DNA of 64,000 bases from Bacteroidota bacterium (GTDB lineage: Bacteria > Bacteroidota > Ignavibacteria > Kapaibacteriales > UBA2268): the NCBI GenBank assembly GCA_004322215.1, contig SCSM01000023.1:1-64000 (forward strand). The letters are read 5' to 3'. How positions within the stretch are numbered: the first letter of the stretch is position 1; every line of letters begins with the position of its first letter. A program made the translations under genes and the position numbers. Below are positions 22,416 to 46,584 of the stretch, piece after piece. The notes beneath the pieces were generated by a model. It made no database searches, was not told the origin of the DNA, and worked only from the letters and a program-made list of their open reading frames with translations.

Positions 22416-22532
22416 TTTTACAAGTCTGTATCTCAATTTACCGGTTGAAATTTTTCATTCATAATTTACAAGTGTATTATATAGTATGTATTAATCCCAC
22501 ACATTTCGCATTGCATCTAATGCTTCGTATTG

Positions 22533-22857: not shown

Positions 22858-23105
22858 TATTTCCTGATTTCAAAATAAATGAATTTTCTGCTCCATCAAT
22901 TTTTTCATTCAATATTTCTATAAAATTTTCTTCCACCTATAAAAACCGCTATCGCCCACACTTTAGCGGAATTTCCCAAATTCAAAATTTACTGTAATAT
23001 TCTAAAATCTCACTTTCACTAAAACTTCACCATTTCGTCTATAAACAACGTTTCTTTAATTCTTTGAATGACACTTTCAAATTTCACTTTTCGTTCAACC
23101 TGACG
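22858..23105 (+). repeat. dispersed repeat, copy C
   Basis: Full-length copy with core at 22935-22955. The right half closely matches copy D (GCGGAATTTCCCAAATT, ACTTCACCATTTCGT) and copy B (end TCGTTCAACCTGAC). Same orientation as the others. Confidence 0.75.
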
Positions 23106-23669
23106 AACGGTAATGTTATTTTTAAACATAATAGAACAAATAGAATGTGAAATTTTCATTGACTTTTCAATTATTATTTCCGACAAATAAATTACTGATA
23201 TTATTCTTCAACGACGCCATGAATGCCCAACAACATGTATCGTAATAAACATTTCGCACATTCTGTCATACACTTTTCCTTAGAAGCGTTGCTCCATCAT
23301 TGCGACCTCTAAATATAATGTTGTAATGGTTCTGTAACGGAAATCATTTAACATGATTATTTCTGAAACCTAATCGCTTGGAGTTATAAAAGTAAGAGGA
23401 AGGCAATTTGCAGAGCAAAAGCCAATAAGAGATGATCGGATAAAATTAAATTTAGCGGTCTTATCCTTCAATTACAAATATTCAGCATTGAAATTATCAT
23501 GATATTGATTCATCAATCAAATATTAAATATCTTTATTAAAAATAAATTCTCTATACAAAATATTTCTTTGAAATCCAAATTTAATTAATTAAGTTATTT
23601 TATAAATGTATGCTATTTGTTATTGTTTATCTTGAGAAATAGAAAAACCAACAAACTGTCGAGGTTAGT
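23106..23669. other. gene-free AT-rich stretch
   Basis: No supported coding frame, RNA gene or clear hairpin terminator was seen here. It leads up to the ATG of the next gene, which has a GAGGT ribosome-binding site at 23661. Confidence 0.4.
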
Positions 23670-32800: not shown

Positions 32801-33575
32801 CTGCTTGCTTATAATCTCCTCTACTATTGTAAAAGTATGCCATATTATTAATACTCTGAGCTAAATCAGGATTGTCGCCTTTGAAAATACGTCTTCTCAT
32901 TTCAAGAGATTCTTTAAACAAAGGTTCTGCCAGCTTATAATCGCCTCTGCCATCGAAAAACATTGCCATATTATTAATGCTCTGAGCTAAATTAGGATTA
33001 TCGCCTTTGAAAATGCGTCTATACATCTCTAATGCTTCTTTGTATAATGGCTCTGCGTCTTTATAATTGCCTCTGATATTATAAAAATATGCTAAATTAT
33101 TGATACTTCTTGCTAAATCAGGATGGTCTGTTTTAAAAATACGTCGTGTCATCTCTAAAGCTTCTTTGTATAATGGCTCTGCGTCCTTATAATTGCCCCT
33201 GTCATTATAATATGTTGCCATGTTGTTGATTATTGCAGCTAAACCCGGATGGTCAGTATTATATTTTAAACGGCAAAGCTTTAATAGAATTTCACCATAA
33301 TATATTGCTGAGTCTAAAATACCATCACGATAAAATTGTAAAGCTTTATTGTTTAAATATTGTAGGTAATCAATTTCTGCGGAACTTTTTTGTTCAGGTA
33401 ATATCATATCCTTTCCCTTTTTGCCTTGTTGTGCTTGACATAAAAGATTTCCCCCACTTCTCTTATTATATTCTTTTGTGCTGTCTATTAAGGCTTGGAA
33501 TGTGGATTCCTGCGAGAATAGCAAATTATATATGCTAAAAAAGACAAACAGAATAACAATCAATCTGACTTTCAT
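29805..33575 (-). CDS. secreted TPR-CHAT protease-like protein, 1256 aa
   Basis: Signal peptide 1-21 (MKVRLIVILFVFFSIYNLLFSQ). Residues ~95-690 are 14 consecutive 42-residue TPRs (KTDHPDLAxSINNMAxFYxxRGxYKDAEPLYKEALEMRRRIF). A linker follows, then a CHAT domain (caspase-like, clan CD) in the last ~300 residues with candidate catalytic His in ATHGYFLS (~1081) and Cys in LSACETG (~1168), then GLQRAFIVAGA and SLWKV. Inferred role: exported cysteine peptidase recruited through its TPR solenoid. CHAT proteins with cytoplasmic location can be defence effectors, but the signal peptide argues for an envelope role here. Convergent with the TPR gene at 28.8 kb. Confidence 0.9.
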   Translation of the reverse strand: MKVRLIVILFVFFSIYNLLFSQESTFQALIDSTKEYNKRSGGNLLCQAQQGKKGKDMILPEQKSSAEIDYLQYLNNKALQFYRDGILDSAIYYGEILLKLCRLKYNTDHPGLAAIINNMATYYNDRGNYKDAEPLYKEALEMTRRIFKTDHPDLARSINNLAYFYNIRGNYKDAEPLYKEALEMYRRIFKGDNPNLAQSINNMAMFFDGRGDYKLAEPLFKESLEMRRRIFKGDNPDLAQSINNMAYFYNSRGDYKQADPLYKEALGIYRRIFKGDHPDLANSISNMAMFYDGTGEYEQAESLFKEALDMRRRIFKGDHPDLAKNINNIATFYYDRGNYKDAETFYIEAFEMRRRIFKTDHPDLANSINNMAAFYNDRGNFKDAETLYKEALEMNRRIFKTDHPDLARSINNMAYFYNDRGRYVDAEPLYKESLEMRRRIFKTDHPDLANSINNMAYFYKCRGDYKLAEPLYKEALGMYRSIFKDDHPDLAKSMNNMAIFYDCSGDYKLVEPLLKETLVMYRHIFKSDHPDLATSINNIAYFYNKIGNYKDAELLYKEALEMRRRIFKTDHPDLASSINNLANFNDGRGNFKDAEPLYKEALEMRRRIFKTDHPDLAGSINNMGSFYHDRGNYKDAESLYKEALEMFRRIFKTDHPYLAGSINNLATFYKETGRNDDAESLFIEALQINDKMLRNYFPSLSEIEKEQFWQTLDFHYVIFNSFAIERTPSNPLILSEMYNNQLFTKALLLNATKKVRERILNSNNNELIDKYMKWIDEKEYLAKLYSLTKTEIDSKGINADSLERAANELEKVLSLKSELFAKEYEKKKIVWQDVQSELKDGEAAIEIIRFNYYDKGWTDTVYYAALIVTKSTKEHPELVLLKNGNELDFKYIEGYKKVIELQREGLLSKEESDKIMGELYNQFWKPIEKKLQGIKKAFLSLDGVYNLINLETLINPATNKYLIDEIDLQLITSTRDLVISTQGKTRKDNVADLFGRPNYKLNEENRQKLAINLKNSEKQFFSDNTLRDLTRLKISDLPGTEIEVKNISKVMKDKGWEAKVFVGDSALEEVVKNIENPKVLHIATHGYFLSDVELEKKSVIGQLTTKTFGIESSKAYENPLLRSGLLFAGAERELDTNYTETSHTDNGILTAYEAMNLILDNTELVVLSACETGLGKIKNGEGVYGLQRAFIVAGAKAIIMSLWKVSDQATQELMTSFYTKWLEGKSKRQAFREAQLELMKLHPEPYYWGAFVMVGE
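31500..33260 (-). repeat. in-gene 126-bp repeats encoding 14 TPRs
   Basis: Each 42-residue TPR corresponds to a 126-bp DNA unit of strikingly low divergence; for example the + strand string AAATCAGGATGGTCTGTTTT recurs in several units. Expect copy-number variation and assembly difficulty. Confidence 0.85.
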
Positions 33576-33779
33576 GTTTTAATCCTCTTTGTATTAAGAA
33601 AAGATAAAATGCAAAATAAGAAATTTTAAGATTTGTTGGGAATATTTTAAAAAATGGTATTCATCAACTAAATTTTCTATTTGCTAAACTATCAAATCAC
33701 CATGTTATAATGATACAGAAAAATTAATTCTAATATCGCTTATTATACATTATTCTGAAGGGGTTCAAGTTTAAAAATA
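33576..33779. other. gene-free stretch upstream of the TPR-CHAT gene
   Basis: AT-rich; no gene or strong hairpin seen. The promoter of the TPR-CHAT gene must lie here on the minus strand, but no sigma-54 box like those at 14-18 kb is present. Confidence 0.4.
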
Positions 33780-33975
33780 TGCAAAAATTTGTTTAAGACT
33801 GCCGGATACTCCGATTATAAACGGCATGGTATCAATTTCTAACGCTACTCTTTACCTATAAAAACCGCTATCGCCACATACGAGCGGAATTTCCCAAATT
33901 TCTCTTTTATATAATTACAATTCTAAAAATATCATGTTCACTATAACTTCACCATTTCGTTTTTAATGAACATTA
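33780..33975 (+). repeat. dispersed repeat, copy D
   Basis: Core at 33854-33874, preceded by TACTCTT as in copies A and B and followed by GCGGAATTTCCCAAATT and ACTTCACCATTTCGT as in copy C. Same orientation as the other copies. It lies at the junction between the envelope-protein region and the mobile element. Confidence 0.75.
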
Positions 33976-34198
33976 TTTTTAACATGAAGTTTATTATGTT
34001 AAATAAACGAAACATTCAATTAAAACAAAGTCTGAATGAAAAATTTAAAGAATAAAGTTCTCTATGTTTCAAATTATTTTAGTAAATTTAACAAGTGAGA
34101 ATGAAAGCCATATACAGAAGAATTTAAATATTTTCGAGTTGTTAATGATTATTAATCTGGTCGAGATTATTTATTGCAGAACTTTTACGCAACTTTGT
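33976..34198. other. gene-free stretch at the left side of the mobile element
   Basis: AT-rich, no gene. I looked here for a copy of the attachment-like sequence CGACTCCCACCTTCTGC found at 44.8 kb and did not find it. Confidence 0.4.
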
Positions 34199-35440
34199 TT
34201 AAATAATTGATTTCTTATATTTCAATACATTTCCAAAATATTTGAGAGATTCTTCAACAAATATCTCTTCCGCTCGGAATTCATGTTCACGGTTAACCAT
34301 GAATTCGTCATGTATCGTTACCAGTGCTATGTTTTCCTTATACAGCTTCTTTGCAACTTTATTCAGAATAAAATCGGATTCTAAATTCATTAGCAATACA
34401 GAGAATTTTGAACATGCTGTCTTATTACTTTTAATTTTTTGGAGGTACTGCCATACGGTCGGGAAATGTAATTTGAATTTGACATAAAAATCTTTAAGTT
34501 TAGAATCATTCACTAAACCTATGAACCGGGAATTAATGTTATAAAGTAAATGTGAGAATAACGGCTTGATTGTGTCCCTGGTTTCATCAACGTCTATGAT
34601 TTGTATCATTTCCGAGTAAAAATCTTTATCATTATTACTTACTAATTCAAAAAATCGAGCTGAATCTTTTGTTTCTAAAAGGTCTTTGTTTTTCGATAGA
34701 ATATCAAATATAAACATCTGTACCTGTGAGTTGCAAATATCAAAATATACCTTATCCGTTTGCTCTTTATCAATGACTACAAATGGTCTCAAGTCAGAGG
34801 GGAGCTGTGTAAAAGTAGAGTAGAACCTATTACAGTGCCGAGCATAGTGTCCCCATATAAATCCCTCCCGCAAATAATTAATTGTCTCATACCTGATTTT
34901 ATATTCCTGAGAGCTTTCTATATAGGTATTACTGATATATTCCATCGATGCATCACTATTGAATGAGGTTTTCTCAGTAAGCATTTTGTATAGGAAATTA
35001 CTTTCTAATTTCTTGTTCAGTTTATTTTGCAGCAAGTCCTGACGATAATTACGTGCAATCCTTCGCTGTAAAGTGCTTGACCGATAGAAGCGGGGCATAA
35101 GAGAGTTTGTTTTACTTGCAGTGAACTTTTTGTTAATGCAATATTCATTACTTTCTTTAACAAAATAATTCGCTTCCATTGTTTTTACAATAATACCTGC
35201 ATCAATTAAAATCTTAATGACTTGTTTATCATTATGACTGCATATCTTGCGGAGGAACAAGGATGATATTGGAACAGATTCAAATTTCCATTTTAAAGAT
35301 TCGTTGCTTATCCATGTAATCAGCCATAAACACAAATCGAATATCACATCACCGAATCTTTGCTTAATATTATTCTTCTCCAAAACCTCAAAAACATTTT
35401 TCGGAGTTAAACTTGAATTTTGAAAATTATGGTTTTCCAT
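34199..35440 (-). CDS. minimal PolA-family polymerase palm protein (predicted), 413 aa
   Basis: The C-terminal ~230 residues resemble the palm of family A polymerases. RFYSTFTQLPSDLRPFVVID leads into motif A, YFDICNSQ (Asp ~232). Motif B would fall around NKTACSKFSVLLMNLE (~338-353). Motif C is TIHDEF (~377), the HDE signature. The usual exonuclease and most thumb features of Pol I are absent, and the first ~190 residues are unrecognised with a helical Arg-rich segment (RRIARNYRQDL). Such short palm proteins occur on phages and plasmids; whether this one polymerises DNA, primes or makes RNA is not established. It lies beside 57-bp tandem repeats and in the same direction as clamp-like and ParB-like genes. 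Confidence 0.6.
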   Translation of the reverse strand: MENHNFQNSSLTPKNVFEVLEKNNIKQRFGDVIFDLCLWLITWISNESLKWKFESVPISSLFLRKICSHNDKQVIKILIDAGIIVKTMEANYFVKESNEYCINKKFTASKTNSLMPRFYRSSTLQRRIARNYRQDLLQNKLNKKLESNFLYKMLTEKTSFNSDASMEYISNTYIESSQEYKIRYETINYLREGFIWGHYARHCNRFYSTFTQLPSDLRPFVVIDKEQTDKVYFDICNSQVQMFIFDILSKNKDLLETKDSARFFELVSNNDKDFYSEMIQIIDVDETRDTIKPLFSHLLYNINSRFIGLVNDSKLKDFYVKFKLHFPTVWQYLQKIKSNKTACSKFSVLLMNLESDFILNKVAKKLYKENIALVTIHDEFMVNREHEFRAEEIFVEESLKYFGNVLKYKKSII

Positions 35441-35712
35441 ATTTTTATTCTTTCTTCATATCTATTATATATTATTAATTCAGAAATAAAAATTACAACC
35501 ATCAGAGAGAAAGAGAATACATATATTACTTAGGTACCTTTAGGCGACTTTAAGGCCGCTGATCCACCTGCCAGATAACAAACAAGGACTAAAGGACCTT
35601 AGATGAATGAACGAAAAATTAACTTATCATGTTAATATTAATTATACTTATTCAAATTCTTACTACCATATAACAGAGAACCAAATATCATGATTTAAGC
35701 TGTTTCCTATTG

Positions 35713-35910
35713 TAATATCATATCATTCCCAGGATCTTTATCAATATTTATGATTCGAAGCTATATTCCGAGATAATATCATACCATGCTACGGTGCCTT
35801 CTTAAAAAATATCCTGATAGCTGTACCCGGTAATATCATACCATGCTACGGTGCTTTCTTAATAAATATCCTGATAGCTGTACCCGGTAATATCATATCA
35901 TGCTCACGAG
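35713..35910 (+). repeat. 57-bp tandem repeats (iteron- or parS-like)
   Basis: TAATATCATA begins units at 35713, 35774, 35831 and 35888 (spacings 61, 57, 57). The units at 35774-35830 and 35831-35887 differ at only two bases; both end GATAGCTGTACCCGG. A further partial match (AAATATCATGAT) lies at 35683. Within a unit, TAATATCATACCATGC is the best-conserved part. Candidate binding array for a replication initiator or for the ParB-like protein. Confidence 0.8.
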
Positions 35911-36073
35911 CTTGTCCATATTTATCCTGTCTTTCATATCTCCTTCAGTAGAACTTTACTATAATAGTTTTTTTCTGTTTTGCATACTTACCATTCAATT
36001 TTTATTCCCTTTTCATAAGAAACAAAAAGCTACTGTTAAAAATGTCATGGTCAGTCTGCATTCAAATATAATA

Positions 36074-36119
36074 ATAAGCAAAAGTTCTACCGGAAGCGGC
36101 GTTGATGACTTTTGCTTAT
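36074..36119. repeat. interrupted inverted repeat
   Basis: Arms ATAAGCAAAAGT (36074-36085) and ACTTTTGCTTAT (36108-36119) pair perfectly over 12 bp. The 22-base loop contains an inner CCG/CGG mini-stem. Too long a loop for a simple terminator; fits an origin, transfer or recombination structure. Confidence 0.6.
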
Positions 36120-36163
36120 CGATTGCCGTTAAATCCTGCCTTGCTGAACCATGATATTAAATT

Positions 36164-36192
36164 GCATAATCAATTATCTTTATTGATTATGC
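36164..36192. terminator. 11-bp hairpin downstream of the minus-strand gene block
   Basis: Arms GCATAATCAAT and ATTGATTATGC around a 7-base loop. It lies ~120 bases past the last gene of the minus-strand block (stop at 36314). The T-tract is weak, so it may be a terminator or part of the adjacent origin-like region. Confidence 0.45.
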
Positions 36193-36284
36193 AGTTCTAA
36201 ACTCAGCTACACTATCAAACACCCCTGTGGTTAAACCGGTTGTCTTGAACATGGAGTAAATTTATAACATCATTGATAGAATAC

Positions 36285-36320
36285 CAATGTCAATGTCAAT
36301 GTCAATGTCAATGTCAATGA
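36285..36320. repeat. hexanucleotide repeat (CAATGT)n
   Basis: Five perfect CAATGT units plus CAATGA. The last units overlap the stop codon and final His codon of the 115-residue gene on the minus strand. Confidence 0.85.
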
Positions 36321-36661
36321 TATATATCATCAGGTAAATAAAATGTTCCGCCCAAAATTTCCTTGCGAAGTACCTTATAATCTTCATTTATGTTCTTCAA
36401 TTGGCTTTTCATACTTTCCAATTTGTTTTTTTGGGCTTGGGATGCATCGGTACCTAATATTTCCAAACCAGTAATGACTCTCTCTAAATATTCGGGTGTA
36501 AAAATTACAAAATGAAAGTGTCTTTCCAAATTTTCTTTTTCAGTTGGAGTAAAACGACCATATATGTCAGTTATAGTAATTTCACCATTAGTTTTATTGA
36601 ATAAAACAGTAATATTTTGCGGGTTATTCATTTGTTCATTCAATTCGTCATTATTCTTCAT
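36314..36661 (-). CDS. small hypothetical protein, 115 aa
   Basis: Start at the ATG at 36661 (MKNNDELNEQ) preceded by AAAGGAGT; a longer in-frame extension has no ribosome-binding site. Unrecognised; hydrophilic, with a likely coiled helix near the end (QAQKNKLESMKSQLKNINED). Last gene of the small-gene block of the mobile element; its 3' end is invaded by a hexamer repeat. Confidence 0.6.
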   Translation of the reverse strand: MKNNDELNEQMNNPQNITVLFNKTNGEITITDIYGRFTPTEKENLERHFHFVIFTPEYLERVITGLEILGTDASQAQKNKLESMKSQLKNINEDYKVLRKEILGGTFYLPDDIYH

Positions 36662-36747
36662 ATAAACTCCTTTGTAATTGTGAAAGCCGAAGCCCATTAC
36701 AGGAACTTCCAGACCTGCATTAGTTATAAAAATTGATTTTATTTTGC

Positions 36748-36987
36748 TTAATTAATTCCCATCTTATCCATGAATTGCTCTAATACATTGAACCATAGCT
36801 TATCGCTAAAATGTTCCCTTGATTTTGCGTACCCATGATTTTTTTTATATTCCATAAATTCCTCAAAATCTTTTATGGGTATTGTCATATCATGATGAAT
36901 ACCTTCGAAAATACCTGAACAGATAACATTACCTTTGTGTTTTTTTATTGTCAATACTTTATCGATAACATTATTTTGATTATTCAT
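36748..36987 (-). CDS. small hypothetical protein, 79 aa
   Basis: Start at the second of two adjacent ATGs (36987), which has the better spacing from GGAGG; 36990 is possible. Short beta-rich N-terminal half (VLTIKKHKGNVICSGIFEGI) and helical C-terminal half. Unrecognised; typical small accessory gene of a mobile element. Confidence 0.55.
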   Translation of the reverse strand: MNNQNNVIDKVLTIKKHKGNVICSGIFEGIHHDMTIPIKDFEEFMEYKKNHGYAKSREHFSDKLWFNVLEQFMDKMGIN

Positions 36988-37144
36988 CATTTCCTCCAAA
37001 TGTTTGTGTTTAAAAAATGGTATAGATGCGCAACCCCCTTAACAAGGTTATTCACAAATATTTTTTGTAATTTTAACCTATTATTTTATGGCTTATCATA
37101 TATGTTAAAACAATGATTCGCATGATATACCGGACCAGTACGCC

Positions 37145-37423
37145 TTAGAACAAATCATTGATTCCTTCAGCTTCATGGTCATCCATAGTCTGTTTTTTAT
37201 CATGTACCTTTTTACCATAATCTTCATCTGTAAAAAACTTTATTATTGAACAATTGTAACCCACAACATAACATTCCATACCAGACAAATGACATTCGGG
37301 ACAGGTAAAGTCATAATACAAGTCATCATGTTCAATTGTTGGAGGGTATTCATAGTTGCCAGGTGACAAAACCGCTCCACAATTTGGGCAGCAGCCACAT
37401 TCGTAGTCAATTATCTCATCCAT
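37145..37423 (-). CDS. zinc-ribbon-like small protein, 92 aa
   Basis: Two CxxC pairs (Cys12-Cys15 in CCPNCG and Cys41-Cys44 in CPEC) indicate a zinc ribbon; the rest is acidic. Such small ribbons often bind nucleic acid or partner proteins in phages and plasmids. Start ATG follows GAGGT. The preceding small gene ends 12 bases upstream, so they are co-transcribed. Confidence 0.65.
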   Translation of the reverse strand: MDEIIDYECGCCPNCGAVLSPGNYEYPPTIEHDDLYYDFTCPECHLSGMECYVVGYNCSIIKFFTDEDYGKKVHDKKQTMDDHEAEGINDLF

Positions 37424-37435
37424 ATTAACCTCATA

Positions 37436-37648
37436 TTAAATTTCTTTGTTTGCAATTTCTTTTTCAATCATTTCTTTTAAAATCGATATTGTTGCTTTAT
37501 CATTTTCATCAAAACCTCGTTTCTTCGTAGATTCAGCTTCATTCAACAGGTGAAGAATTTCTTTTAAAGCACTAATATTTTTTTGTCTCTTGGCGTCACC
37601 TATTGCATGCATTACATCAAGGTAACTATATGATTTCTGTTTTTTCAT
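37436..37648 (-). CDS. small helical protein, 70 aa
   Basis: Lysine- and glutamate-rich, predicted all-helical, unrecognised. ATG follows GAGGAG at good spacing. Lies between the zinc-ribbon gene and the DUF488 gene in the same direction. Confidence 0.55.
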   Translation of the reverse strand: MKKQKSYSYLDVMHAIGDAKRQKNISALKEILHLLNEAESTKKRGFDENDKATISILKEMIEKEIANKEI

Positions 37649-37731
37649 TGTTTTCTCCTCAAATACTTGTGATTAAAATTGTTTAAATTTGCGAAAGCTA
37701 TAATGAGTAGATTTCCATTATGTTCTTACGT

Positions 37732-38175
37732 TTATTTTATTAAATGAATAATTTCAATATCATTTCTTACTCGTTTCAGATATTCCACCAACAATCGCCT
37801 GTGACACTGTTCAGGTGTAGGCTCACTGCATAAAAAACAGTTCTCGTGCAGTTTTTCAATGTCTGTCGATTGTGCGATATTCCTCATATCAAGCAGTTTT
37901 AAGTATTCCGTCTCATATTGTTCCCATGTAATTTTATTATGCCTATACATAGATAATAGCTCTTTTGTTGGAGCGAAATCTAAATTATGCTCGTAAGTGA
38001 TATTCCCAATTTCCTTTAAAAAATATTCGAGGTCAGCACCTTTGGCAAAGCCAGACAATTGTGATACATTATTAATTCTTATATCAACAAGTGTTTTTAC
38101 ACCTGAATTCCTAAGCAGGTTAAAGAATATTTCTGCTGGTTTTTGAGTGAAACCGATAGTATAAAGTTTAATCAT
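37732..38175 (-). CDS. DUF488 family protein, 147 aa
   Basis: Starts KLYTIGFTQKPAEIFFNLL and has VDIRINNVSQLSGFAKG, then the diagnostic Cys/His motif LCSEPTPEQCHRRLLVEYL. This is the DUF488 family; its biochemical role is not established, though the motif suggests a metal or nucleotide site. ATG follows AAAGGAG. It is next to a three-cysteine radical-SAM-like gene; the two families are commonly found together on phages and plasmids, suggesting a joint nucleic-acid or nucleotide-related task. Confidence 0.85.
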   Translation of the reverse strand: MIKLYTIGFTQKPAEIFFNLLRNSGVKTLVDIRINNVSQLSGFAKGADLEYFLKEIGNITYEHNLDFAPTKELLSMYRHNKITWEQYETEYLKLLDMRNIAQSTDIEKLHENCFLCSEPTPEQCHRRLLVEYLKRVRNDIEIIHLIK

Positions 38176-38250
38176 GACTGTCTCCTTTTATTTGAATAAT
38201 ATTTAATTGAAAATGCAATTTCATTTCAGCTATAAATTTTGGCTCAATGT

Positions 38251-38913
38251 TCATTTTAATAATCTCCTCAAATTCTTTTTTTCAACTACTCTCGTAAAAT
38301 TATTTAGTTCAGTTATTAAAGCCAGAATATTTTCTTTTGATGGTTCAGGTAAATTATGCCCACCGGAATCTGCTCCAATATTAACCTGAACAGGGGAGCA
38401 TGATTTTATCATGTCAACTAATATTAGCAAGTCAAAATCCATTATCGGCTCTATTGTCACATACCTATCTAACATATCAAGCTTTGACATTGCTAATGCT
38501 CTCAGTTCGGGCTTAGGTGAATTAACCATTATTTCAGGGTAGTATCTATTTGTTTCAATAGTTGTGCATATCAATGAATTCTCTGGCAATACATCAATAT
38601 ATCTGAATAAGTTTGCAGGATTTTTAGATTGAAAAAGATATTTATTCCTGAATTTAGAACAATGTTCTAATGTTAACCTTACCCATTCAGGGTTGTTATT
38701 ATCTGCAAATAAGTCATTTGAAGAACCCACAAAAATAAAGTTGTCATTACCCAAATTTGTTTTTAATTCGGCTGAATCAAAACGAATCTCTTTTTGGTGT
38801 TTCCAACGTTTCACATAACAGTATGAGCAATCGTGTTCACATTTGCCTTTAACTGTGTTCCAAGTATGAGTAACAAACCCATACATGTTTCCTCTTGATA
38901 AATTTAATCCCAT
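38251..38913 (-). CDS. DUF5131 / phage Gp37-Gp68-like radical-SAM-type protein, 220 aa
   Basis: The N-terminus has FVTHTWNTVKGKC followed by a three-cysteine cluster C25-x3-C29-x2-C32 (CEHDCSYCYVKRW), the [4Fe-4S]/SAM-type motif seen in the DUF5131 family. Later motifs (FVGSSNDLFAD; YLFQSKNPANL; ICTTIETNRYYP; VTIEPIMDFD) fit a TIM-barrel fold. Activity in this family is unknown; the phage Gp37/Gp68 name reflects occurrence only. ATG follows GGAGG. Neighbour of the DUF488 gene. Confidence 0.75.
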   Translation of the reverse strand: MGLNLSRGNMYGFVTHTWNTVKGKCEHDCSYCYVKRWKHQKEIRFDSAELKTNLGNDNFIFVGSSNDLFADNNNPEWVRLTLEHCSKFRNKYLFQSKNPANLFRYIDVLPENSLICTTIETNRYYPEIMVNSPKPELRALAMSKLDMLDRYVTIEPIMDFDLLILVDMIKSCSPVQVNIGADSGGHNLPEPSKENILALITELNNFTRVVEKKNLRRLLK

Positions 38914-38938
38914 AACGCCTCCATTATTTAGTTGATAA

Positions 38939-40825
38939 TTATTGATAAAAAATTAAACTCTTTATATCAGATTCATAAGATTTAACAACCTCTTTAAAAG
39001 CATCAATTTTTCTGCTCTCATCCGATGGCATATCCTTCCAACTTGTCTGTATGAAAGAAAGTAATTCTGTTGCACCCTGATAAAGACAAATTGCTTTTTC
39101 TAAGAAAACATTTACTTCTTTTGGTTTTACTTCCCTGCTATCCTTCTCATGGAACTTAAATACTATATGTCCGATATTTCTCTTCACTTTTTTATGCTGA
39201 TGAATAATACCTTCATTTATTAATTTTCTGAGTGTTTTTTCTTGCTCACTTAATTGTTCCTGCGATATTATTGTCTTAGGTAGAAAAAACGAGTCTTTGA
39301 ATTCCATCAATACCGGATCAAGTGGATCATATATAAAGAAATCTAAATTTTTCGATAATAATCCTGTATGTTCTTCTATACCACCTGCTAAGTCTATAGC
39401 TTCTTGGTCATCAGGTGCAGAATTGATTGCATCTGTTGGTTGAATAGAATTTTGTATATTATCTACAAAATTTTCCTCGTTTTTCGTTTTCGATCCATTG
39501 ATTGTAGGACTTTTAACTTCAACAGATTGTTCTCTTAATGCTACTGCCTGTCTTTTTATTTCCTTTCTTTTCTCTATTCTATCAAGGTTTGACTTTTCTT
39601 CTTCCTCGAATACTTTATCCCAATATTCAGGATCTTCATCATAAGCATTAGCTTTATTCCAAATATTACCATTCTCTTTAACTGTTTTAGATACTGTAGT
39701 GTCAATGTCGCCATAGATGTCATCTTCATCGTCAAGAATTGATGAATAATCCTTTTTCAAATGATTTGAATCTGAGTGAGTAGGGACTATTGAATCTGTT
39801 TCAATCACATCTTCCTGTTCTGAGTTTAATTTCCCGAACCATCTTGGTGAATTCACTTTCATCATTTGAATAGCTGTAACATGATCCAATTCCTCAGAAA
39901 CAAGTGCCTTAAACAAATCCTGCCTGAATTTCCACATTTGTTTAATATCATTCTTATCTACATCCGTTAAATAGTCATGGCTGTTAAAATATTCTAATAC
40001 TTCAGTTTGGTCTAAGTTGATATTCTTATCAACAAAACCTTGATGATGTTTCATGTGATAAATCGCTTCATGTAGTTTAAGTTCACCCGAAGTAAAGCGG
40101 AAATACAAATCAGGTCTATTTTTCCATAATGAAACAATATCATCCTTATCTTTATGGGTGTATTTATTATGGTTCTTCATAAAGGTAAAAACTTCGGGAT
40201 AATTGTTTTTCAGAGCAAGGGCTTCAGCTAAATTAAATTCACTGCTATTAAATTTCTGTACGATCTCCTTTCTTCTGTTTCTACCTTTCAATTTTGTTTT
40301 TTCTATGTCTCTATCAACAATCTCTTCCAATTCATCGTAGAATTCTGCTAATATCAATGCAATTTGAAATGGTGAATAATGTTCTTGTAATAAATATTTT
40401 GACAGAACAAAGTCAAGAATATCTTCCGGATTACCTTTATATTCTTCTATATCATCTGAGTTAATATCAATACCAATGAGTTTCAATGCTAATACTGTAG
40501 TGTTACCACAAAGAATAGAATCTTGGTATTTTGTTATTTTGTAAGTTTTAGGGAACTTTTTATAATGTTCAGCTATAGCCGAAACAAGCTTCCCTGTAGG
40601 TTGTGGCATCCTAAGTAAAAAATCAATTGGTTGCAGGTCATAATGTTCATGTGCTTTACTTTTGCGACCTCTTTTTGTTTTTCCCTTTACATTTTGTTCA
40701 TTCAAAGATGTGATATTATCATCAAAACCTTGAAGTATTTTCATTATTGTATCTTTTTTTACTGTATTCTCATTATTTGAATTTTCAGGTTCATAATGAG
40801 TATTTTCTACTGGTTTTAATTCCAT
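38939..40825 (-). CDS. ParB-like domain protein, 628 aa
   Basis: A basic stretch KGKTKRGRKSK (~48) is followed at ~62-125 by a ParB/sulfiredoxin-like domain (YDLQPIDFLLRMPQ; then ILCGNTTVLALKLIGID, equivalent to the GHxRxxAAxxLG motif). Residues ~145-290 contain helical segments resembling a ParB HTH (SPFQIALILAEFYDEL; NLAEALALKNNYPEVF). The C-terminal half is acidic, low-complexity then helical. Inferred role: partition or plasmid-type replication control, or a regulator; DNA binding to the 57-bp repeats is a testable idea. No ParA ATPase is visible. Start ATG follows GAGAG. Confidence 0.5.
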   Translation of the reverse strand: MELKPVENTHYEPENSNNENTVKKDTIMKILQGFDDNITSLNEQNVKGKTKRGRKSKAHEHYDLQPIDFLLRMPQPTGKLVSAIAEHYKKFPKTYKITKYQDSILCGNTTVLALKLIGIDINSDDIEEYKGNPEDILDFVLSKYLLQEHYSPFQIALILAEFYDELEEIVDRDIEKTKLKGRNRRKEIVQKFNSSEFNLAEALALKNNYPEVFTFMKNHNKYTHKDKDDIVSLWKNRPDLYFRFTSGELKLHEAIYHMKHHQGFVDKNINLDQTEVLEYFNSHDYLTDVDKNDIKQMWKFRQDLFKALVSEELDHVTAIQMMKVNSPRWFGKLNSEQEDVIETDSIVPTHSDSNHLKKDYSSILDDEDDIYGDIDTTVSKTVKENGNIWNKANAYDEDPEYWDKVFEEEEKSNLDRIEKRKEIKRQAVALREQSVEVKSPTINGSKTKNEENFVDNIQNSIQPTDAINSAPDDQEAIDLAGGIEEHTGLLSKNLDFFIYDPLDPVLMEFKDSFFLPKTIISQEQLSEQEKTLRKLINEGIIHQHKKVKRNIGHIVFKFHEKDSREVKPKEVNVFLEKAICLYQGATELLSFIQTSWKDMPSDESRKIDAFKEVVKSYESDIKSLIFYQ

Positions 40826-40860
40826 TTTATACTCTCAATTTTTATTTTACATGATTATTT

Positions 40861-40900
40861 TATATAAAATCTGGAGGGGAGGGTAAGCACTCCTCCAGAT
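40861..40900 (-). terminator. hairpin terminator after the clamp-like gene
   Basis: Arms ATCTGGAGG and CCTCCAGAT with a 14-base loop, followed on the minus strand by TTTTATA. It lies 10-50 bases past the stop at 40910 and could reduce read-through into the ParB-like gene. Confidence 0.65.
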
Positions 40901-40909
40901 TATTAGTTA

Positions 40910-41737
40910 TTATAGCTCATCCTCTGCATTCATCACTCGACCAAAACATGTTTTGGTATTAAATTTATCACTGATGAATAATACACTGGTTTCTGTTAAA
41001 TGACAGGTATAATTTGAGTCCTTGTCTAAGTATCTAAAATACTCTTTAGTAATTGTAGCACCCTGTATGTTCCCAATATCTAAGTCGGTTTCAATTGGTA
41101 TTTTGTCCGAGAAATCTTTACCGGTAAAACAAACAAATTTTTTATTATTGATTATCCTCGGAAAAATTTCTAAATCAAATCCATTTTGAAGTGCGGCATC
41201 CGCTTTAATTTCTTTTAACTTAGTTGATGGTAGCTCGAAACTGAAATATGACTTTGACATATCAAATACTGAATCTGCAATATCATCTTCCATGTCTTTA
41301 AATAAAGATATTTGAGCGAAACGTAAGTTAAATTCTTTATTGAAATCTGATAAAATAATATTATCACCAACTAACTCACCATTATTTTCTACATGATATT
41401 GAAGGGTTAACTGGATTTCAGTATTTTTTTGAAATCTGGTAAGCATATCAATAAGTAATTTCGTATTATAAATACCGCATTTTATTACCCTTTTCGGTAA
41501 TCGCACCTTTAATGGTGTTTTACAAAATTCACCAAGTTCGATTTTACCTACTATTACAGCAGTTCTTGCCGCTGTATAAGATTTAATAACAAAGTTCTTC
41601 TCAGGGGTTATTTCTAAAAGTGAGTTACTGTCAATCGTAATGAACTGCTTTAGATAATTGATAAGCAGTGTTACATTTGTTAAGATAAAAGTTAACACTT
41701 TAACTTTTTTTTCTGTTTTATGAGAATTATTTTGCAT
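40910..41737 (-). CDS. possible sliding-clamp-like protein, 275 aa
   Basis: Overall pattern of two similar alpha/beta halves, as in phage-type processivity clamps: LINYLKQFITIDSNSLLEITPEKN and GIYNTKLLIDMLTRF in the first half, then SFELPSTKLKEIKADAALQNGFDLEIF in the second. The assignment rests on strand/helix rhythm and genomic context (polymerase-palm, ParB-like and recombinase genes), not on a conserved motif, so it is tentative. No signal peptide. ATG follows GGAG. A perfect 14-bp palindrome lies ~155 bases upstream. Confidence 0.4.
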   Translation of the reverse strand: MQNNSHKTEKKVKVLTFILTNVTLLINYLKQFITIDSNSLLEITPEKNFVIKSYTAARTAVIVGKIELGEFCKTPLKVRLPKRVIKCGIYNTKLLIDMLTRFQKNTEIQLTLQYHVENNGELVGDNIILSDFNKEFNLRFAQISLFKDMEDDIADSVFDMSKSYFSFELPSTKLKEIKADAALQNGFDLEIFPRIINNKKFVCFTGKDFSDKIPIETDLDIGNIQGATITKEYFRYLDKDSNYTCHLTETSVLFISDKFNTKTCFGRVMNAEDEL

Positions 41738-41891
41738 TTTATATCTCCGTTATTTAATTTGACAAATACTATTTTAAGTTATATTGAAATCTACTACTTA
41801 TACCTTTCTTACGTATTGGGTAAAACCCGGCAACTACCACCATAAAAGGTCGTGTTAATGTCTAATTCTTGATATTTTATTTCTCTCTGAA

Positions 41892-41905
41892 TGGGAGCGC
41901 TCCCA
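41892..41905. promoter_or_regulatory. perfect 14-bp palindrome TGGGAGCGCTCCCA
   Basis: A G+C-rich perfect palindrome in an AT-rich intergenic stretch between the HTH gene and the clamp-like gene. Shape and CG centre are those of LacI-family operators (the sequence equals the CebR box of actinobacteria), but no LacI-family gene is in the window. Candidate operator for the downstream replication genes. Confidence 0.5.
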
Positions 41906-42000
41906 ACACTCAGTTAATTGTTTATATCAACCTCCTTTTCTTTAATTACATATGATTTTGTTCAATTAATGTATTGCAATACAATTATCATTTTCATATT

Positions 42001-42276
42001 TTAACCCTGACTTTTAAATATTTCCTTGATTTCACTTTCCCTGAAAAATACTTTGCGACCGATTTTATGAAATTTTATAGATCCATCTCTCATCCTTTTC
42101 CATAATGTTACAGGTGAGATTTTAAACCTCTTCATCAAATCATAACGCGTAATAATTATATCCTCTTTTGGAGTTTGGACAATTGAACTAACCATAACAC
42201 TAAGCTCTTCCCTAATCAGCATCCTCAACTGGCTATTAAAGGTATCTTGGTCTTGTATATGTATCAATTTTTCCAA
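42001..42276 (-). CDS. MerR-type helix-turn-helix / excisionase-like protein, 91 aa
   Basis: Residues ~43-88 form the HTH_17 excisionase-type winged helix: ITRYDLMKRFKISPVTLWKRMRDG, then IKFHKIGRKVFFRESEI. In Bacteroidota integrative elements such proteins act as excisionases or as regulators of excision and replication genes. The start is TTG at 42276, six bases after GGAG, with no better ATG before residue 18. It lies between the recombinase side and the replication side of the element. Confidence 0.82.
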   Translation of the reverse strand: MEKLIHIQDQDTFNSQLRMLIREELSVMVSSIVQTPKEDIIITRYDLMKRFKISPVTLWKRMRDGSIKFHKIGRKVFFRESEIKEIFKSQG

Positions 42277-42595
42277 TTTTACTCCGTTTTTAATTTCAAC
42301 GAAAGCAAACTAAAAAAAGCCCAAATTTCATAAAAATAAGATATAGTTGATAACTTTATTATCTATGATATATAAGGGTTTACGGTATATTCAAAATAAT
42401 TTAATAAAATGAAAAAATATTCTAAAATCTGGGAGTAATTCGTTGAATAATCGAGTGAAATTGGTAGATATATAAGATATTGAGTATTGTTGTAAATGAT
42501 TAATCTTTACCTGACTAAGAGCAAAGTGGTATAAATTTTATATTTTGTAGATATAGGTATAAGGTGAAGTATTAACCTAAAGAAATTAATTTTTA
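42277..42595. other. gene-free AT-rich stretch
   Basis: 319 bp without a supported gene between the HTH gene and the 246-residue gene. It must hold the HTH gene's promoter on the minus strand; I see no clear operator or hairpin. Confidence 0.4.
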
Positions 42596-43336
42596 TTAGA
42601 TTTTGAATGTGATATTTCCTTTATCAAGAATATCTAAAATTAATTGAACAGCAAGTTGAACATCGAAATTCTTTTTAAATGGATGTTCTAATTTATTACT
42701 TTTATCATTTTTGTATATTTGGACTTCCATTGCCTTAGTTCTTACACTGCTCCATTGACCTTTTTTTATACGTATCAAGTTTAAAGGTATTAGTTGGTCA
42801 ATCATAAACTCAATGGAAATTTCATTAAATCTAATATCTTTATTTAAATAATACATTGTAATACCTAATTGTTGAACTTGTCCAAACCAATGTATTATAT
42901 TATCCTCAATATAACAAAAATCGTAAAATTTAGTTTTCTCAGGAATATTTATTTTTGTAATAAACTGAGATTTTTCGTCTAATAATCCTGGTTTATTATA
43001 AAAATTATCAATTAAAATGTCCGAAATGAACGTATCTATGTACATATAAATAATTTGAGATTTATTATACCGATTCCTCAATTCTTCTTCGGTAAAATCA
43101 ACGATAGAATATGGATTCGCATTTTGGTTATCTCTGTTGATGTACAATTCTGCTACATAAGTAATATTTGCTATAGCTAAGTTATAAAGGTCGTACATGC
43201 TTTTTACATAATGCTCAGATTTTCTATCAAGATTTTTATAGATAAATTCTAATGGATTCTTTTTTGCTATTGCTTTCTTAAAAAGCATCGCAATATCAAC
43301 ACCAGTAATATCTGATTCAGAAAAAACTTCTTTCAT
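42596..43336 (-). CDS. hypothetical protein, 246 aa
   Basis: Unrecognised, no signal peptide or membrane helix. Mostly helical with many aromatic residues (NRYNKSQIIYMYIDTFISDIL; IIHWFGQVQQLGITMYYLN). It follows the recombinase gene by 22 bases on the same strand and is probably co-transcribed; a role in integration or element maintenance is possible but not shown. Confidence 0.6.
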   Translation of the reverse strand: MKEVFSESDITGVDIAMLFKKAIAKKNPLEFIYKNLDRKSEHYVKSMYDLYNLAIANITYVAELYINRDNQNANPYSIVDFTEEELRNRYNKSQIIYMYIDTFISDILIDNFYNKPGLLDEKSQFITKINIPEKTKFYDFCYIEDNIIHWFGQVQQLGITMYYLNKDIRFNEISIEFMIDQLIPLNLIRIKKGQWSSVRTKAMEVQIYKNDKSNKLEHPFKKNFDVQLAVQLILDILDKGNITFKI

Positions 43337-43358
43337 TATTTGTCTTTCTTAATAGTTT

Positions 43359-44615
43359 TTATTCTTCCCAAGCTTTTTGAACTTGATTAACAGCTTCTTC
43401 TTGTGTAATTCGGACATACTTTTGAAAACTTGACCTTGTTTTATGTCCAGATACTTTCATAACCATCTCAGGTAATATTCCTTTTTTTAATGTCAATGTA
43501 ATGAAGGTTCTTCTCCCGGTATGGCTGCTAATAAGTTCATACTTCGGTTTTGTTTCATCTATTCTTACTTTTCCTATGTATTTTGTTATTTGTATCGGTG
43601 TATCAATCTCAGCAATTCGGCAGATTTCCTTTATAAATTTATTATACTTTTGATTGGAACATAGCAGTAATTTTTTATCATATCTTATTAATATTTGTTC
43701 TAACCTGTTAGAGATTGGTATAATCAATGGATCTTGAGTTTTTATGGTATAGAGAGTAATAATTTTTTCTTTTAGATTAATGTTTTCTGGTTTCAAATTT
43801 GTTAAATCTGAATATCTCAACCCTGTATAAACCTGAACCAAGAAACAGTCTCGAATTTTGTCATAAGAGTTCGACAAATTATCAAGCTTTTCAATTTTTG
43901 TAAGTTCATCTGCGCTCAAAGCTATTAAAGTTGTCTCGTCAATATTTTTTCTGAGAATCTTAATAAACTTCGTATTATGATGAAGTTCTTTGTCTAATGT
44001 TGAATGCATAAAGGATTTTATAACTTTGATAATATAACTTTGACCATTATTAGTTAATCCTTTTTTGCTTAAATATTTTACAAAACCTGTGTAGAATTCC
44101 TCATTAATATTATCGAATGACAAATCATATTTTTTGGAGGAGACAAAATTATTAAGATGATTGTATGTAACATTATATGATTTTAGTGTTGACGCCGTCA
44201 CCGGCTTTCCTGTAATAGTTAAACGTTTACCTGATTTTGAGTCATTAATGTAATCTTTAAAATGCTCTAAGAAAGTTTTATTAGCTACTTTTTTTAAATT
44301 ACTTTTCCCTTCCAAGAAGGATTGTAAAGCTTCTTTTAATTTTTCTTTGTCAATTGATTTATTGTTAACTGTATTAGCAACATAATAATCATCTAAAAAT
44401 CTTTTTGTTTTTTCCAACTTGCTATTATATTCAAGTGCATACCTATAGCTTGGTTTGAATCGTTGTTTTTTATAGTCCCAAAATTTTTCCTCTGTTTGAA
44501 TTTTTATTGTGGTTCTTATTCTCTGCTTATTCCATAAAATAGAAATTAAGATAAAAGTATAGACTTTTTCTTTTGTTACCTTTTGCAAATAATAATTGAT
44601 TTTGAATCCAGTCAT
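43359..44615 (-). CDS. tyrosine recombinase (integrase), 418 aa
   Basis: Three-part layout of Bacteroidota-type integrases: N-terminal arm-binding region (~1-110), SAM-like core-binding domain (~115-215) and catalytic domain. Catalytic residues: Arg in YTGLRYSDL (~264), HTGRR (~360), GH in VSGHKTRSS (~389) and the nucleophile Tyr in FQKYVRI (~400). It should cut and rejoin DNA at an att site without a double-strand break. The gene begins 172 bases from the tRNA-like tandem repeat at 44788, the expected position next to the attachment site. The remnant at 22.5 kb is related to its C-terminus. Confidence 0.93.
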   Translation of the reverse strand: MTGFKINYYLQKVTKEKVYTFILISILWNKQRIRTTIKIQTEEKFWDYKKQRFKPSYRYALEYNSKLEKTKRFLDDYYVANTVNNKSIDKEKLKEALQSFLEGKSNLKKVANKTFLEHFKDYINDSKSGKRLTITGKPVTASTLKSYNVTYNHLNNFVSSKKYDLSFDNINEEFYTGFVKYLSKKGLTNNGQSYIIKVIKSFMHSTLDKELHHNTKFIKILRKNIDETTLIALSADELTKIEKLDNLSNSYDKIRDCFLVQVYTGLRYSDLTNLKPENINLKEKIITLYTIKTQDPLIIPISNRLEQILIRYDKKLLLCSNQKYNKFIKEICRIAEIDTPIQITKYIGKVRIDETKPKYELISSHTGRRTFITLTLKKGILPEMVMKVSGHKTRSSFQKYVRITQEEAVNQVQKAWEE

Positions 44616-44825
44616 ATAGTCAAATTGAAATTATTAAATAAAAAAGTTTTGACAAAAGTTTTGACACTTTTTGTAAATTCAAAAATAAGTAGAAAAATTT
44701 AAATAAAAAAATAAGTGAAGTAAATACAAGGAATTACAAGTTATTGGTTTTTTTTAGTTTCATTCAGATTAATTTAGTTTAACTAAATTCGACTCCCACC
44801 TTCTGCACAAAATCAAATCCAAAAT

Positions 44826-44895
44826 GCAGACGCGTCCCGATACAAAATCGGGATGGGCTTCAAAACCCGTGTGGGTTCGACTCCCACCTTCTGCA
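44826..44895 (+). tRNA. tRNA-like sequence, UCA anticodon (Sec-type), copy 1
   Basis: Acceptor strands GCAGACG and CTTCTGC pair with one mismatch. A hairpin TCCCGAT/ATCGGGA takes the D-arm place, GGG-CTTCAAAA-CCC carries TCA as anticodon, and GTGGG-TTCGACT-CCCAC is a perfect T-arm. It lacks the long variable arm of functional selenocysteine tRNA and has an eight-base anticodon loop. It is probably a pseudo-tRNA or an altered tRNA fragment that serves as the integration target. Confidence 0.35.
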
Positions 44896-44913
44896 CAAAA
44901 TCAAATCCAAAAT

Positions 44914-44982
44914 GCAGACGCGTCCCGATACAAAATCGGGATGGGCTTCAAAACCCGTGTGGGTTCGACTCCCATCTTCTGT
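44914..44982 (+). tRNA. tRNA-like sequence, UCA anticodon (Sec-type), copy 2
   Basis: Second copy of the unit 88 bp downstream, identical through the T-arm up to CCCA, then with changed acceptor bases (TCTTCTGT). The acceptor stem is weaker than in copy 1, so this copy is even less likely to be a working tRNA. Confidence 0.3.
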
Positions 44983-45324
44983 ACGACATATATTTAAGTA
45001 TTTATTAGTAATTTCAACGACTAATAAATTCTTTTTTTTATGGTTTTGACAGATATAATGAACTCCAAAATAAATCATATTATCTATTATTCCTTAAATC
45101 CGAATTCAGACATATTTTCAAACTATTTCAAAATCATTTTAAAACCATTTTCTTTTTATATCACTTCTTCTGAACTATCTTTGTCCTGCTCGTTCTTTGA
45201 TAACAAATGTCGGACTTGAATTATCAACGTCGGGATTCAAAGGTATTTCCTCCCTTTTCAAAAGGGCTTGTACTGAACATAGGCAAAGTTTTAAAATTCT
45301 AAATTTAAACATTAAAAATTTATT

Positions 45325-45360
45325 GAAAATTGAAAATTGAAAATTGAAAATTGAAAATTG
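45325..45360. repeat. heptanucleotide repeat (GAAAATT)n
   Basis: Five perfect GAAAATT units. Similar short runs of GAAAATT appear at other AT-rich intergenic places (for example 49396), so this is probably slippage-generated. Confidence 0.85.
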
Positions 45361-45404
45361 TTTAAAAATGTTACTTTTTGCCTACCCCCTATATGACGTT
45401 AATA

Positions 45405-45432
45405 TGACAAATAGTGACAAATGCAGACAAAT
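45405..45432 (+). promoter_or_regulatory. three 10-bp-phased boxes TGACAAAT
   Basis: TGACAAAT at 45405 and 45415 and AGACAAAT at 45425, one helical turn apart. About 85 bases further lies a 25-base near-palindrome built from the same TGTGACA words (45515-45539). Likely binding sites for a DNA-binding protein; which gene they control is unclear. Confidence 0.4.
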
Positions 45433-45702
45433 ATTCCATGTCCGCAATATTTTAACTCCTTTACAAATCAATTAAATTTCTGAATGGCAATGCAAAAATT
45501 AAAAAAAGTGAGACAAAATGTGACAATTTGTGACATTTTCAAAAAGTAACTGTGAAAATCTGTGAATTCTTTGTTGTACTAATACCTATGACCAATAGAT
45601 AACTAATGGTTTTACTTACTGATTTGCTATAGATTTGAAATTATTACGCAACAGAATAATTTCACTATTTACAATTAATTCTCCACCATTCGTAATTCGT
45701 AA

Positions 45703-46584
45703 TTAATTAAATTTAACCTCTCCGGGCATTCCGATTTTCAATTGGCCGTTGTTCTTCACTTTCACTTTGATGGCATAAACCATATTCACTCTCTCGTCTT
45801 TTGTCTGTATTATTTTCGGTGTGAATTCGGATTGAGAAGAAATCCAGCTAATTGTGCCTGTCATTGATTGCAGTTCTTTCTTGTCTTTGTCAATTAATAT
45901 CTTAACCTGCTGACCGATTTTGATTTTTCCAAGCTGGTCCCCGCTTACATAAGCTTTTAGGAACATATTGCTTATATCTGCAATTTTATAAAGCGGCTTT
46001 CCGGCAACAGCCATCTCGAAAGTTTCTGCATATTTATTCAGCACGGTTCCATCTATCGGATTCACAAGCACACTCTTTTTGAGCATATCTTCAATCTGTG
46101 CAATTTGTGCATCCAATGATTTCAGTTCGTTTATAATCGCTGGGTTCTGAGTTTCTATCTGATTGATTTGCTTATTAATCACGGAAATGTTACCGTTTAT
46201 ATCATCGAGTTGTTTTTGTGTAGCAGCTTTGTTATTGAACATCGCTTCAATCCTTTTTTGGTCTTTTTCCGCATTTTGCTTTTGCTCTTTTAAAACATTA
46301 ATCTGTGCAATGACTGAACTGAATTTAGTGCTTATTGCTCTTTTGCTTGCCTCAATCTGTTCCTTCTTTAGAAAAAGCTGGGTTGTATCAATAACTCCGA
46401 TTACATCACCTTGTTTAATAGTTTGACCTTCTTCAATGTTAAATACAATTAGCTTTCCTGTTGCCTCAGATGAGATAGTAATTTCAGTAGCTTCGAAATT
46501 GCCATAAGCATCAGACAAACCATCGCCTCCGGTACAGGCATAAAAAATCATATTAACAAACAAAATCATTAAAATTGTTCTCAT
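45703..46584 (-). CDS. HlyD-family efflux adaptor (membrane fusion protein), 293 aa
   Basis: A lipoprotein-type signal (FYACTGGDG) followed by the first half of a biotinyl-lipoyl domain (EATGKLIVFNIEEGQTIKQGDVIGVID), a coiled-coil hairpin at ~70-155 (QIEASKRAISTKFSSVIAQI; EKDQKRIEAMFNNKAA), the second lipoyl half (VLVNPIDGTVLNKYAETFE) and a beta-barrel (KIADISNMFLKAYVSGDQLGKIKIGQ). It would bridge an inner-membrane pump to the TolC-like channel. The gene follows tolC- and tetR-like genes, but no ABC, RND or MFS pump gene follows it. ATG after GAGGTG. Confidence 0.9.
   Translation of the reverse strand: MRTILMILFVNMIFYACTGGDGLSDAYGNFEATEITISSEATGKLIVFNIEEGQTIKQGDVIGVIDTTQLFLKKEQIEASKRAISTKFSSVIAQINVLKEQKQNAEKDQKRIEAMFNNKAATQKQLDDINGNISVINKQINQIETQNPAIINELKSLDAQIAQIEDMLKKSVLVNPIDGTVLNKYAETFEMAVAGKPLYKIADISNMFLKAYVSGDQLGKIKIGQQVKILIDKDKKELQSMTGTISWISSQSEFTPKIIQTKDERVNMVYAIKVKVKNNGQLKIGMPGEVKFN

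Follow-up and report, generated by a model that had tools for sequence, protein, structure and literature searches.

A stretch of 64,000 nucleotides (nt) from a Bacteroidota bacterium (bases 1-64000 of contig SCSM01000023.1, our C33; hereafter the window) holds at 34199-44615 a run of 12 open reading frames (ORFs), all on the minus strand, with a tyrosine recombinase at one end and a polymerase of 413 amino acids (aa) at the other. The genome itself, G000, has 4.2 Mb in 47 contigs. The explanation that we lean towards, on slightly better than even terms, is that these genes form a tRNA-inserted integrative element of a local family, in which the replication module was swapped for a standalone TV-Pol beside iteron-like repeats. 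TV-Pols were described in 2008 as standalone minimal A-family polymerases of 400-600 aa with an N-terminal extension and no exonuclease, linked to integrases in mobile elements and predicted to have primase-polymerase activity (Iyer, Abhiman and Aravind, PMC2579912, cited throughout for the sections on this group). An earlier note on this DNA had instead proposed an integrative element with its own minimal replisome, of a type not commonly described.

In the case of the 413-aa protein, nothing significant was found in Pfam, PHROGs or NCBIfam. LPSxLRPF-, DIxNSQ-, RxxxK- and TIHD-type motifs are common to the protein and its relatives (alignment A3), and in 16 aligned proteins (A7) the residues R205, D234, N237-Q239 (NSQ), K292, H377 and D378 are invariant. 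These include both catalytic acidic residues of the palm, D234 and D378, kept in all 16 rows, and the beta-hairpin arginine R205; the RxxxK of the fingers is present as R288-x3-K292. An AlphaFold2 model built on the 16-protein alignment (mean predicted local distance difference test, pLDDT, 77.8; predicted template modelling score, pTM, 0.64) has the superfamily A polymerase fold. All of the 50 Foldseek matches listed were A-family polymerases (apicoplast Pol, Klenow, Taq, Bst, T7 and others), with a best E of 7.3e-8 and a TM-score of ~0.44. In the VIA structure alignment, residues 140-413 of the model matched apicoplast polymerase with a Z of 16.6 and a root-mean-square deviation of 3.3 over 253 residues. 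An exonuclease domain was not found by Pfam, the residues before 142 being barely covered by the fold search. Judged by the model, this is an A-family polymerase core that is catalytically complete, with predicted activity. The palm without a recognisable exonuclease, as read from the letters in the earlier note, is thus borne out, also by structure prediction.

Because the TV-Pol features that were tested were found, among them a tyrosine recombinase in the same gene run, ~8 kb off, we file the protein as TV-Pol-like by its motifs and predicted fold, in a comparison that did not take in Sputnik V13 and CcPol. In whole-genome searches, remote relatives were detected in 2 of 198 related genomes and in 5 of 395 genomes of a phylum sample, the own genome being included in both counts. 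A further 4 viral and 11 genome loci (Bacteroidota, Ignavibacteriota, Chlorobiota) came from scans with an alignment of three rows. In a viral library, a 409-aa protein (A0A516L5C2) matched at near full length (E 1.8e-20). A named TV-Pol was not matched directly, as tblastn of the phage collection returned only unannotated huge-phage records; these uncultured, very large phage genomes (634-735 kb) code for remote TV-Pol relatives.

Directly upstream of the polymerase gene, imperfect copies of an 18-nt core start at 35711, 35772, 35829 and 35886 (span 35711-35903). In a shuffle test these 4 matches compared with a mean of 0.05, and four were reached in 0 of 100 shuffles. Six DnaA-box-like sites with one mismatch lie within 33576-44640, the nearest to the repeats at 36226; a perfect DnaA box was not found in this interval. 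The earlier note had described an origin-like repeat region flanked by the genes that it named. The repeats are real, but they sit between the polymerase gene and the 127-aa ORF, so that not all of the named genes flank them.

The element was compared with five sister loci, of which 12.8 to 20 kb each were fetched: L022 (contig C20) and L023 (contig C3) of the same genome, L024 of genome G012, and L037 and L038 of genome G007. Parts of the gene backbone of the window element recur in them. The window integrase is 50% identical to that of L022 and 48% to that of L024, the helix-turn-helix (HTH) protein is 48% identical to its L024 homologue, and the DUF5131 protein is 64.5% and 66% identical to its homologues in L024 and L037. 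From the recombinase inward, the window element reads integrase (418 aa), 246-aa ORF, HTH protein (91 aa), 275-aa protein, 628-aa protein, DUF5131, DUF488, four small ORFs, the repeats and the polymerase. The order in L024 is integrase, 734-aa ORF, HTH, ParB-like protein, 275-family protein, a methyltransferase gene, 298-aa ORF, PALP enzyme, D12-type methyltransferase, DUF5131, and finally a DnaD-like and a DnaC-like protein (PHROGs, 2.5e-11 and 1.2e-9). L022 has a DnaD-like/DnaC-like pair as well (9.1e-6 and 5.7e-9), and the loader genes of the two loci are mutually homologous. By profile, TV-Pol was not found in the stretches fetched from any of the five. The recurrence of gene order, which the earlier note had named as a check, was seen for the backbone. 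The simplest account of these gene contents is that TV-Pol replaced the initiator/loader module. This module swap is the informative part of the finding. With a TV-Pol in the place that an initiator/helicase-loader pair takes in close relatives, it offers natural evidence for the role in replicating mobile elements that was predicted in 2008 (PMC2579912).

The window also has relics further left, at 22.9-23.3 kb. These are a DnaC-like fragment, broken, and a stretch of 199 nt similar to distal-end DNA of L022; both share the strand of the element. The fragment is possibly, to judge from its similarity, the trace of an older replication module or of another element. Should these relics form its far end, the element would have had the loader pair at one time and would measure ~22 kb, with 23.6-33.6 kb as cargo. 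If they belong to an older insertion, the module swap rests on the sisters alone.

A different view of the same genes is that TV-Pol does not start replication at all, and that a passively carried island holds it for repair, for defence or for nothing, near a candidate-defence gene. The lack of a helicase motif near TV-Pol would fit such an island, as would the match of the DUF488 protein to the PADLOC candidate-defence model PDC-M45C (2.9e-59), and another mobile element could replicate without its own primase-polymerase (PMC7693054, in the part that deals with this point). Against this stand the iteron-like repeats directly upstream of TV-Pol, the catalytic residues, which are kept, and the loader module present in two sisters. 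We regard the passive island as unlikely, although it has a claim to be weighed.

Regarding the other functions of a replisome, neither a classic nor a deviant (KGGxGK[ST]) Walker A motif was found in the 12 genes or in six frames of 33576-44640. Neither a helicase or its loader nor a clamp loader or ParA can therefore be recognised in this interval, and the ParA ATPase expected as partner of a ParB was accordingly not found. If the element self-replicates, host proteins or genes beyond 33576-44640 supply the helicase and loader functions.

In a true minimal replisome, the 275-aa protein, which the earlier note had read as possibly sliding-clamp-like, would be a PCNA/beta-type sliding clamp serving TV-Pol on the excised element. 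Its protein family is small (3 of 54 genomes of the taxonomic family, 3 of 123 of the order, and 2 of 395 genomes sampled across the phylum, these two from the taxonomic family of the own genome), and relatives were not found in the genome-contig, viral-contig and plasmid collections. There are hints of a clamp. A phmmer search of the PDB with the window protein matched only archaeal PCNA (4 distinct, best E 0.28), one of the five members, a paralogue in the own genome, matched the Pfam family Rad1 of the 9-1-1 clamp over most of both (PF02144, E 0.0069), and the length of 275 aa together with two strand-helix-strand halves, read by eye, would suit a clamp. However, the PCNA match (148-220 with 161-234) is out of register with these halves, the same paralogue matches an unrelated Pfam family at E 0.0093, and two other members matched unrelated PDB chains by phmmer. 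A profile of the five homologues (A2) gave no match in the PDB at E up to 10. With HHalign, A2 was compared with 131 templates, namely 12 clamps (a nine-row PCNA alignment, its nine rows singly, T4 gp45 and E. coli DnaN) and 119 ORFs as decoys, whose folds were not checked. DnaN ranked 41st, the PCNA alignment 50th, gp45 59th and the single PCNAs 30th to 128th; with the clamps at decoy level, this ranking speaks neither for nor against a clamp fold. AlphaFold2 without an alignment gave an unusable model (pLDDT 31.3). A profile search of 21 other TV-Pol loci, each covering 10 to 21 kb, did not find the 275-family, it is present in four sister loci without TV-Pol (L023, L024, L037 and L038), and among the loci profiled it occurs with TV-Pol in this window only. 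The clamp was therefore not confirmed, and without a Walker A motif, including that of a clamp-loader ATPase, and with the clamp candidate found together with TV-Pol in this window only, the minimal replisome is unsupported; we consider it highly unlikely.

What is constant is the partner of this protein: the 275-family gene adjoins the ParB-like gene in 5 of 5 copies. The ParB-like protein, too, was not found by profile in the 21 other TV-Pol loci. With E limits of 1 for the 628-aa protein of the window, 0.1 for its relatives in L023 and L024, and 0.01 for those in L025, L037 and L038, Pfam scans detected no ParB family. Some relatives have a ParB-like DGRxR motif, read by eye in the A4 alignment, and some a weak C-terminal ribbon-helix-helix match (PF01402); neither is clearly kept in the window copy. 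The protein is thus ParB-like by motif resemblance only. This fixed pair represents an uncharacterised module. A bolder idea is that the 275-aa family has a divergent clamp fold, forms a fixed pair with the ParB-like protein, needs no encoded loader and here feeds TV-Pol, which would make a priming-copying system with its own processivity factor and no helicase; we give this little credence.

The integrase has XerC/D-type NCBIfam matches under the cut-off, in addition to its Pfam match above it. Of the 54 genomes of the family, 35 contain matches to its group, and the four closest other copies, one of them on C20 of the own genome, are 49-51% identical. Outside the integrase, copies of the 3' end of tRNA-Leu(CAA) start at 44788, 44876 and 44964; the first two are identical and the third differs at 2 of 20 core bases. 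These three ends likely mark the right attachment (att) site, as far as their alignment to the tRNA goes. In the wider group, 23 related integrases were examined over up to 400 bases upstream; 7 have a tRNA T-loop motif there, where shuffling predicts 0.46, and one of the seven is a tRNA-Arg called by ARAGORN. Taken together, the tRNA ends and the T-loop excess indicate that this recombinase group often sits at tRNA 3' ends, and that the element probably ends on the right near 44.79 kb. Synteny with three genomes of the same genus fixes the right flank only, from ~45.69 kb.

The tandem copies show some further detail. Two perfect 88-nt units (44788-44983) contain a tRNA-Leu that is truncated at the 5' side and has a changed anticodon arm. 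A selenocysteine tRNA was ruled out for these repeats, as ARAGORN calls the intact homologue tRNA-Leu(CAA). This homologue, on C38, is the only similar tRNA stretch found elsewhere in the own genome; the 3' part of the tRNA and ~70 bases downstream are in common (88% over 142 columns). On C38 (L070, near 73216) an integrase relic, recognised by eye, comes after the intact tRNA-Leu(CAA), and then come genes that do not resemble the window element; for this reason the site may be an insertion hotspot. L023 has a tRNA as well, a tRNA-Leu(CAG) on one side; beside its ParB-like/275-family pair it has a resolvase-like gene 84% identical to that of L038.

Several observations weigh against the module swap on an integrative element. 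A second copy of the att core, and with it the left end, was not found in the window at up to 5 mismatches, and the size of the element and its excision are therefore unproven. The DnaC-like fragment lies beside the integrase relic at 22494-22619, and both may come from a different, older element. Loaders were recognised in two sisters only; the single candidate replication protein of L023 had no PHROG match, and L037 and L038 were outside the PHROG test. All 17 of 17 PolA-SSB pairs had a helicase nearby (PMC10061031, in the section on these pairs), and none is seen here. The branch of the window TV-Pol (3.16) is the longest of 22, with its place in the tree unsupported, and it is the only row of A7 without the proline that follows NSQ; drift of this protein is thus possible.

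Some of this could also describe a decaying remnant or a mosaic of insertions, immobile, with the recombinase end intact and the other end lost. The absent second core copy would be expected of such a remnant, and so would the broken integrase and DnaC-like fragments at 22.5-23.3 kb. The tRNA-Leu copies of the window are partial, and it holds no intact tRNA. Moreover, a 206-aa gene (glycosylase/lyase-like by eye), at most ~1.4 kb from the right flank in the three same-genus genomes, sits in the own genome on another contig, C36, in a different context. However, the main element genes are complete open frames with no internal stop, and in a genome of 47 contigs the other end may be elsewhere. 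Decay is, in our estimate, distinctly improbable.

If the element is integrative and replicates by TV-Pol, as we favour, its cycle might be as follows. The tyrosine recombinase would insert it at tRNA genes and, with the HTH protein, would excise it as a circle. TV-Pol would bind or be recruited at the repeats, make a primer and extend it, and the host helicase and Pol III would complete replication. In the sisters, the DnaD-like/DnaC-like loader pair would do the equivalent job by borrowing the host replication machine. The ParB-like and 275-aa proteins may form a pair independent of TV-Pol, for stable inheritance or for the neighbouring DNA-modification set.

The features are collected in Table 1. 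Pfam, PHROGs and NCBIfam scans covered 10 of the 12 ORFs each and 11 jointly, the 70-aa ORF being left out. In these 11 ORFs no relaxase, capsid, terminase or transfer family was matched, the left end of the element not having been located. This agrees with the earlier note, which had seen no such gene and had also correctly recognised the tyrosine recombinase, the excisionase-like HTH and the gene run on one strand. A phage satellite was set aside, as there are no packaging genes in the ORFs scanned. Rfam gave no match in 33500-45800.

Table 1. Features of the element and its surroundings in the window (E values follow the family or model names).
Feature	Position	Strand	Basis
Integrase relic, C-terminal fragment, internal stop	22494-22619		adjoins the relics at 22928-23348
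199 nt matching distal-end DNA of the L022 (C20) element at 87% identity	22928-23126	-	nucleotide comparison
Broken DnaC-like loader fragment, 46 aa, internal stop	23211-23348	-	tblastn, L024 4e-8, L022 6e-10
TV-Pol-type A-family polymerase core, 413 aa	34199-35440	-	alignments, AlphaFold2 model, fold searches
Four iteron-like direct repeats, 57-61 nt spacing, upstream of the TV-Pol gene	35711-35926		repeat search, shuffles
Short AATGTC tandem repeat	36280-36321		repeat search
127-aa ORF	36314-36697	-	no significant family (Pfam, PHROGs, NCBIfam)
83-aa ORF	36748-36999	-	no significant family (Pfam, PHROGs, NCBIfam)
92-aa ORF with CxxC pairs, zinc-ribbon-like by eye	37145-37423	-	weak zinc-finger matches (Pfam)
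70-aa ORF	37436-37648	-	ORF list
DUF488 protein	37732-38175	-	PF04343 1.2e-20
DUF5131 (radical-SAM-like) protein	38251-38913	-	PF07505 1.6e-5, under its cut-off; phrog_2045 2.8e-9
628-aa ParB-like protein	38939-40825	-	A4 alignment; match to G105, 1.1e-4
275-aa protein, small family, clamp fold proposed	40910-41737	-	five copies in three genomes; weak clamp matches
HTH_17/excisionase-like protein, 91 aa	42001-42276	-	PF12728 1.7e-7; phrog_66 1.2e-6
246-aa ORF	42596-43336	-	no significant family (Pfam, PHROGs, NCBIfam)
Tyrosine recombinase (integrase), 418 aa	43359-44615	-	PF00589 51.2 bits, 2.9e-13, above cut-off
Three tRNA-Leu(CAA) 3' ends, 88-nt tandem spacing, candidate att core	44788-44983	+	repeat search, tRNA alignment

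Regarding the accessory genes, the match of the DUF488 protein to PDC-M45C is full length. Among the ten proteins scanned with PADLOC, M45A was unmatched and M45B was matched by the DUF488 protein alone. L024, L037 and L038 have recurring DNA methyltransferase genes together with PALP, to which two of these loci add a 267-298-aa gene and DUF5131; this set could be a DNA-modification island. Here the methyltransferase and PALP domains were recognised in L037 by Pfam and their homologues in L024 and L038 by tblastn, which also found a PALP homologue in L023.

To place the element among other TV-Pol carriers, the neighbour genes of the 21 other TV-Pol loci were grouped by single-linkage clustering (E 1e-4). 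A homologue of the window integrase was present in 9 of the 21 and a serine-recombinase-like cluster, read by eye from sequence, in 5; either kind was found in 12 and neither in 9. Three loci (L028, L074 and L085) have three gene clusters in common, read as type I restriction-modification genes. These neighbourhoods agree with the 2008 description (PMC2579912).

Compared with its sisters, the window element has the same integrase type and HTH protein (L022, L024), the same DUF5131 protein (L024, L037) and the same ParB-like and 275-family pair (L023, L024, L037, L038). It differs from them in the loaders (L022, L024), the methyltransferases (L024, L037, L038) and the PALP enzyme (L023, L024, L037, L038) that they carry, and in its TV-Pol and DUF488 genes, homologues of the latter being likewise absent from the five stretches fetched (tblastn).

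Among known systems, the PolA-SSB primases, or CcPol-MP, of SCC elements are alike in having an A-family polymerase core on a recombinase-bearing element, and CcPol-MP, a staphylococcal relative, has been reported to prime (Rice 2023, PMC10061031, as far as its account of these pairs goes). In contrast to them, the window has neither an adjacent OB-fold partner candidate nor a helicase motif, and the polymerase gene has no coding-strand ORF of at least 60 aa within ~870 bp on its upstream side or 620 bp on its downstream side. A PolA-SSB primase was ruled out on these grounds, with no OB-fold SSB partner and no Walker A or helicase motif. Furthermore, those elements mostly have large serine recombinases, whereas the recombinase here is a tyrosine recombinase, and ~140 residues precede the polymerase core in the window protein. 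A search that left subscription journals mostly outside turned up no published account of the gene combination of this element. Elements with a TV-Pol and an integrase are nevertheless already described (PMC2579912), and to call the type not commonly described was too strong. With these TV-Pol mobile elements, the window element has in common a minimal A-family polymerase and a lambda-type integrase in a putative mobile element. It differs from their description in that no D5 helicase is seen, and in that its TV-Pol stands in place of the DnaD-like/DnaC-like module of its sisters, beside iteron-like repeats.

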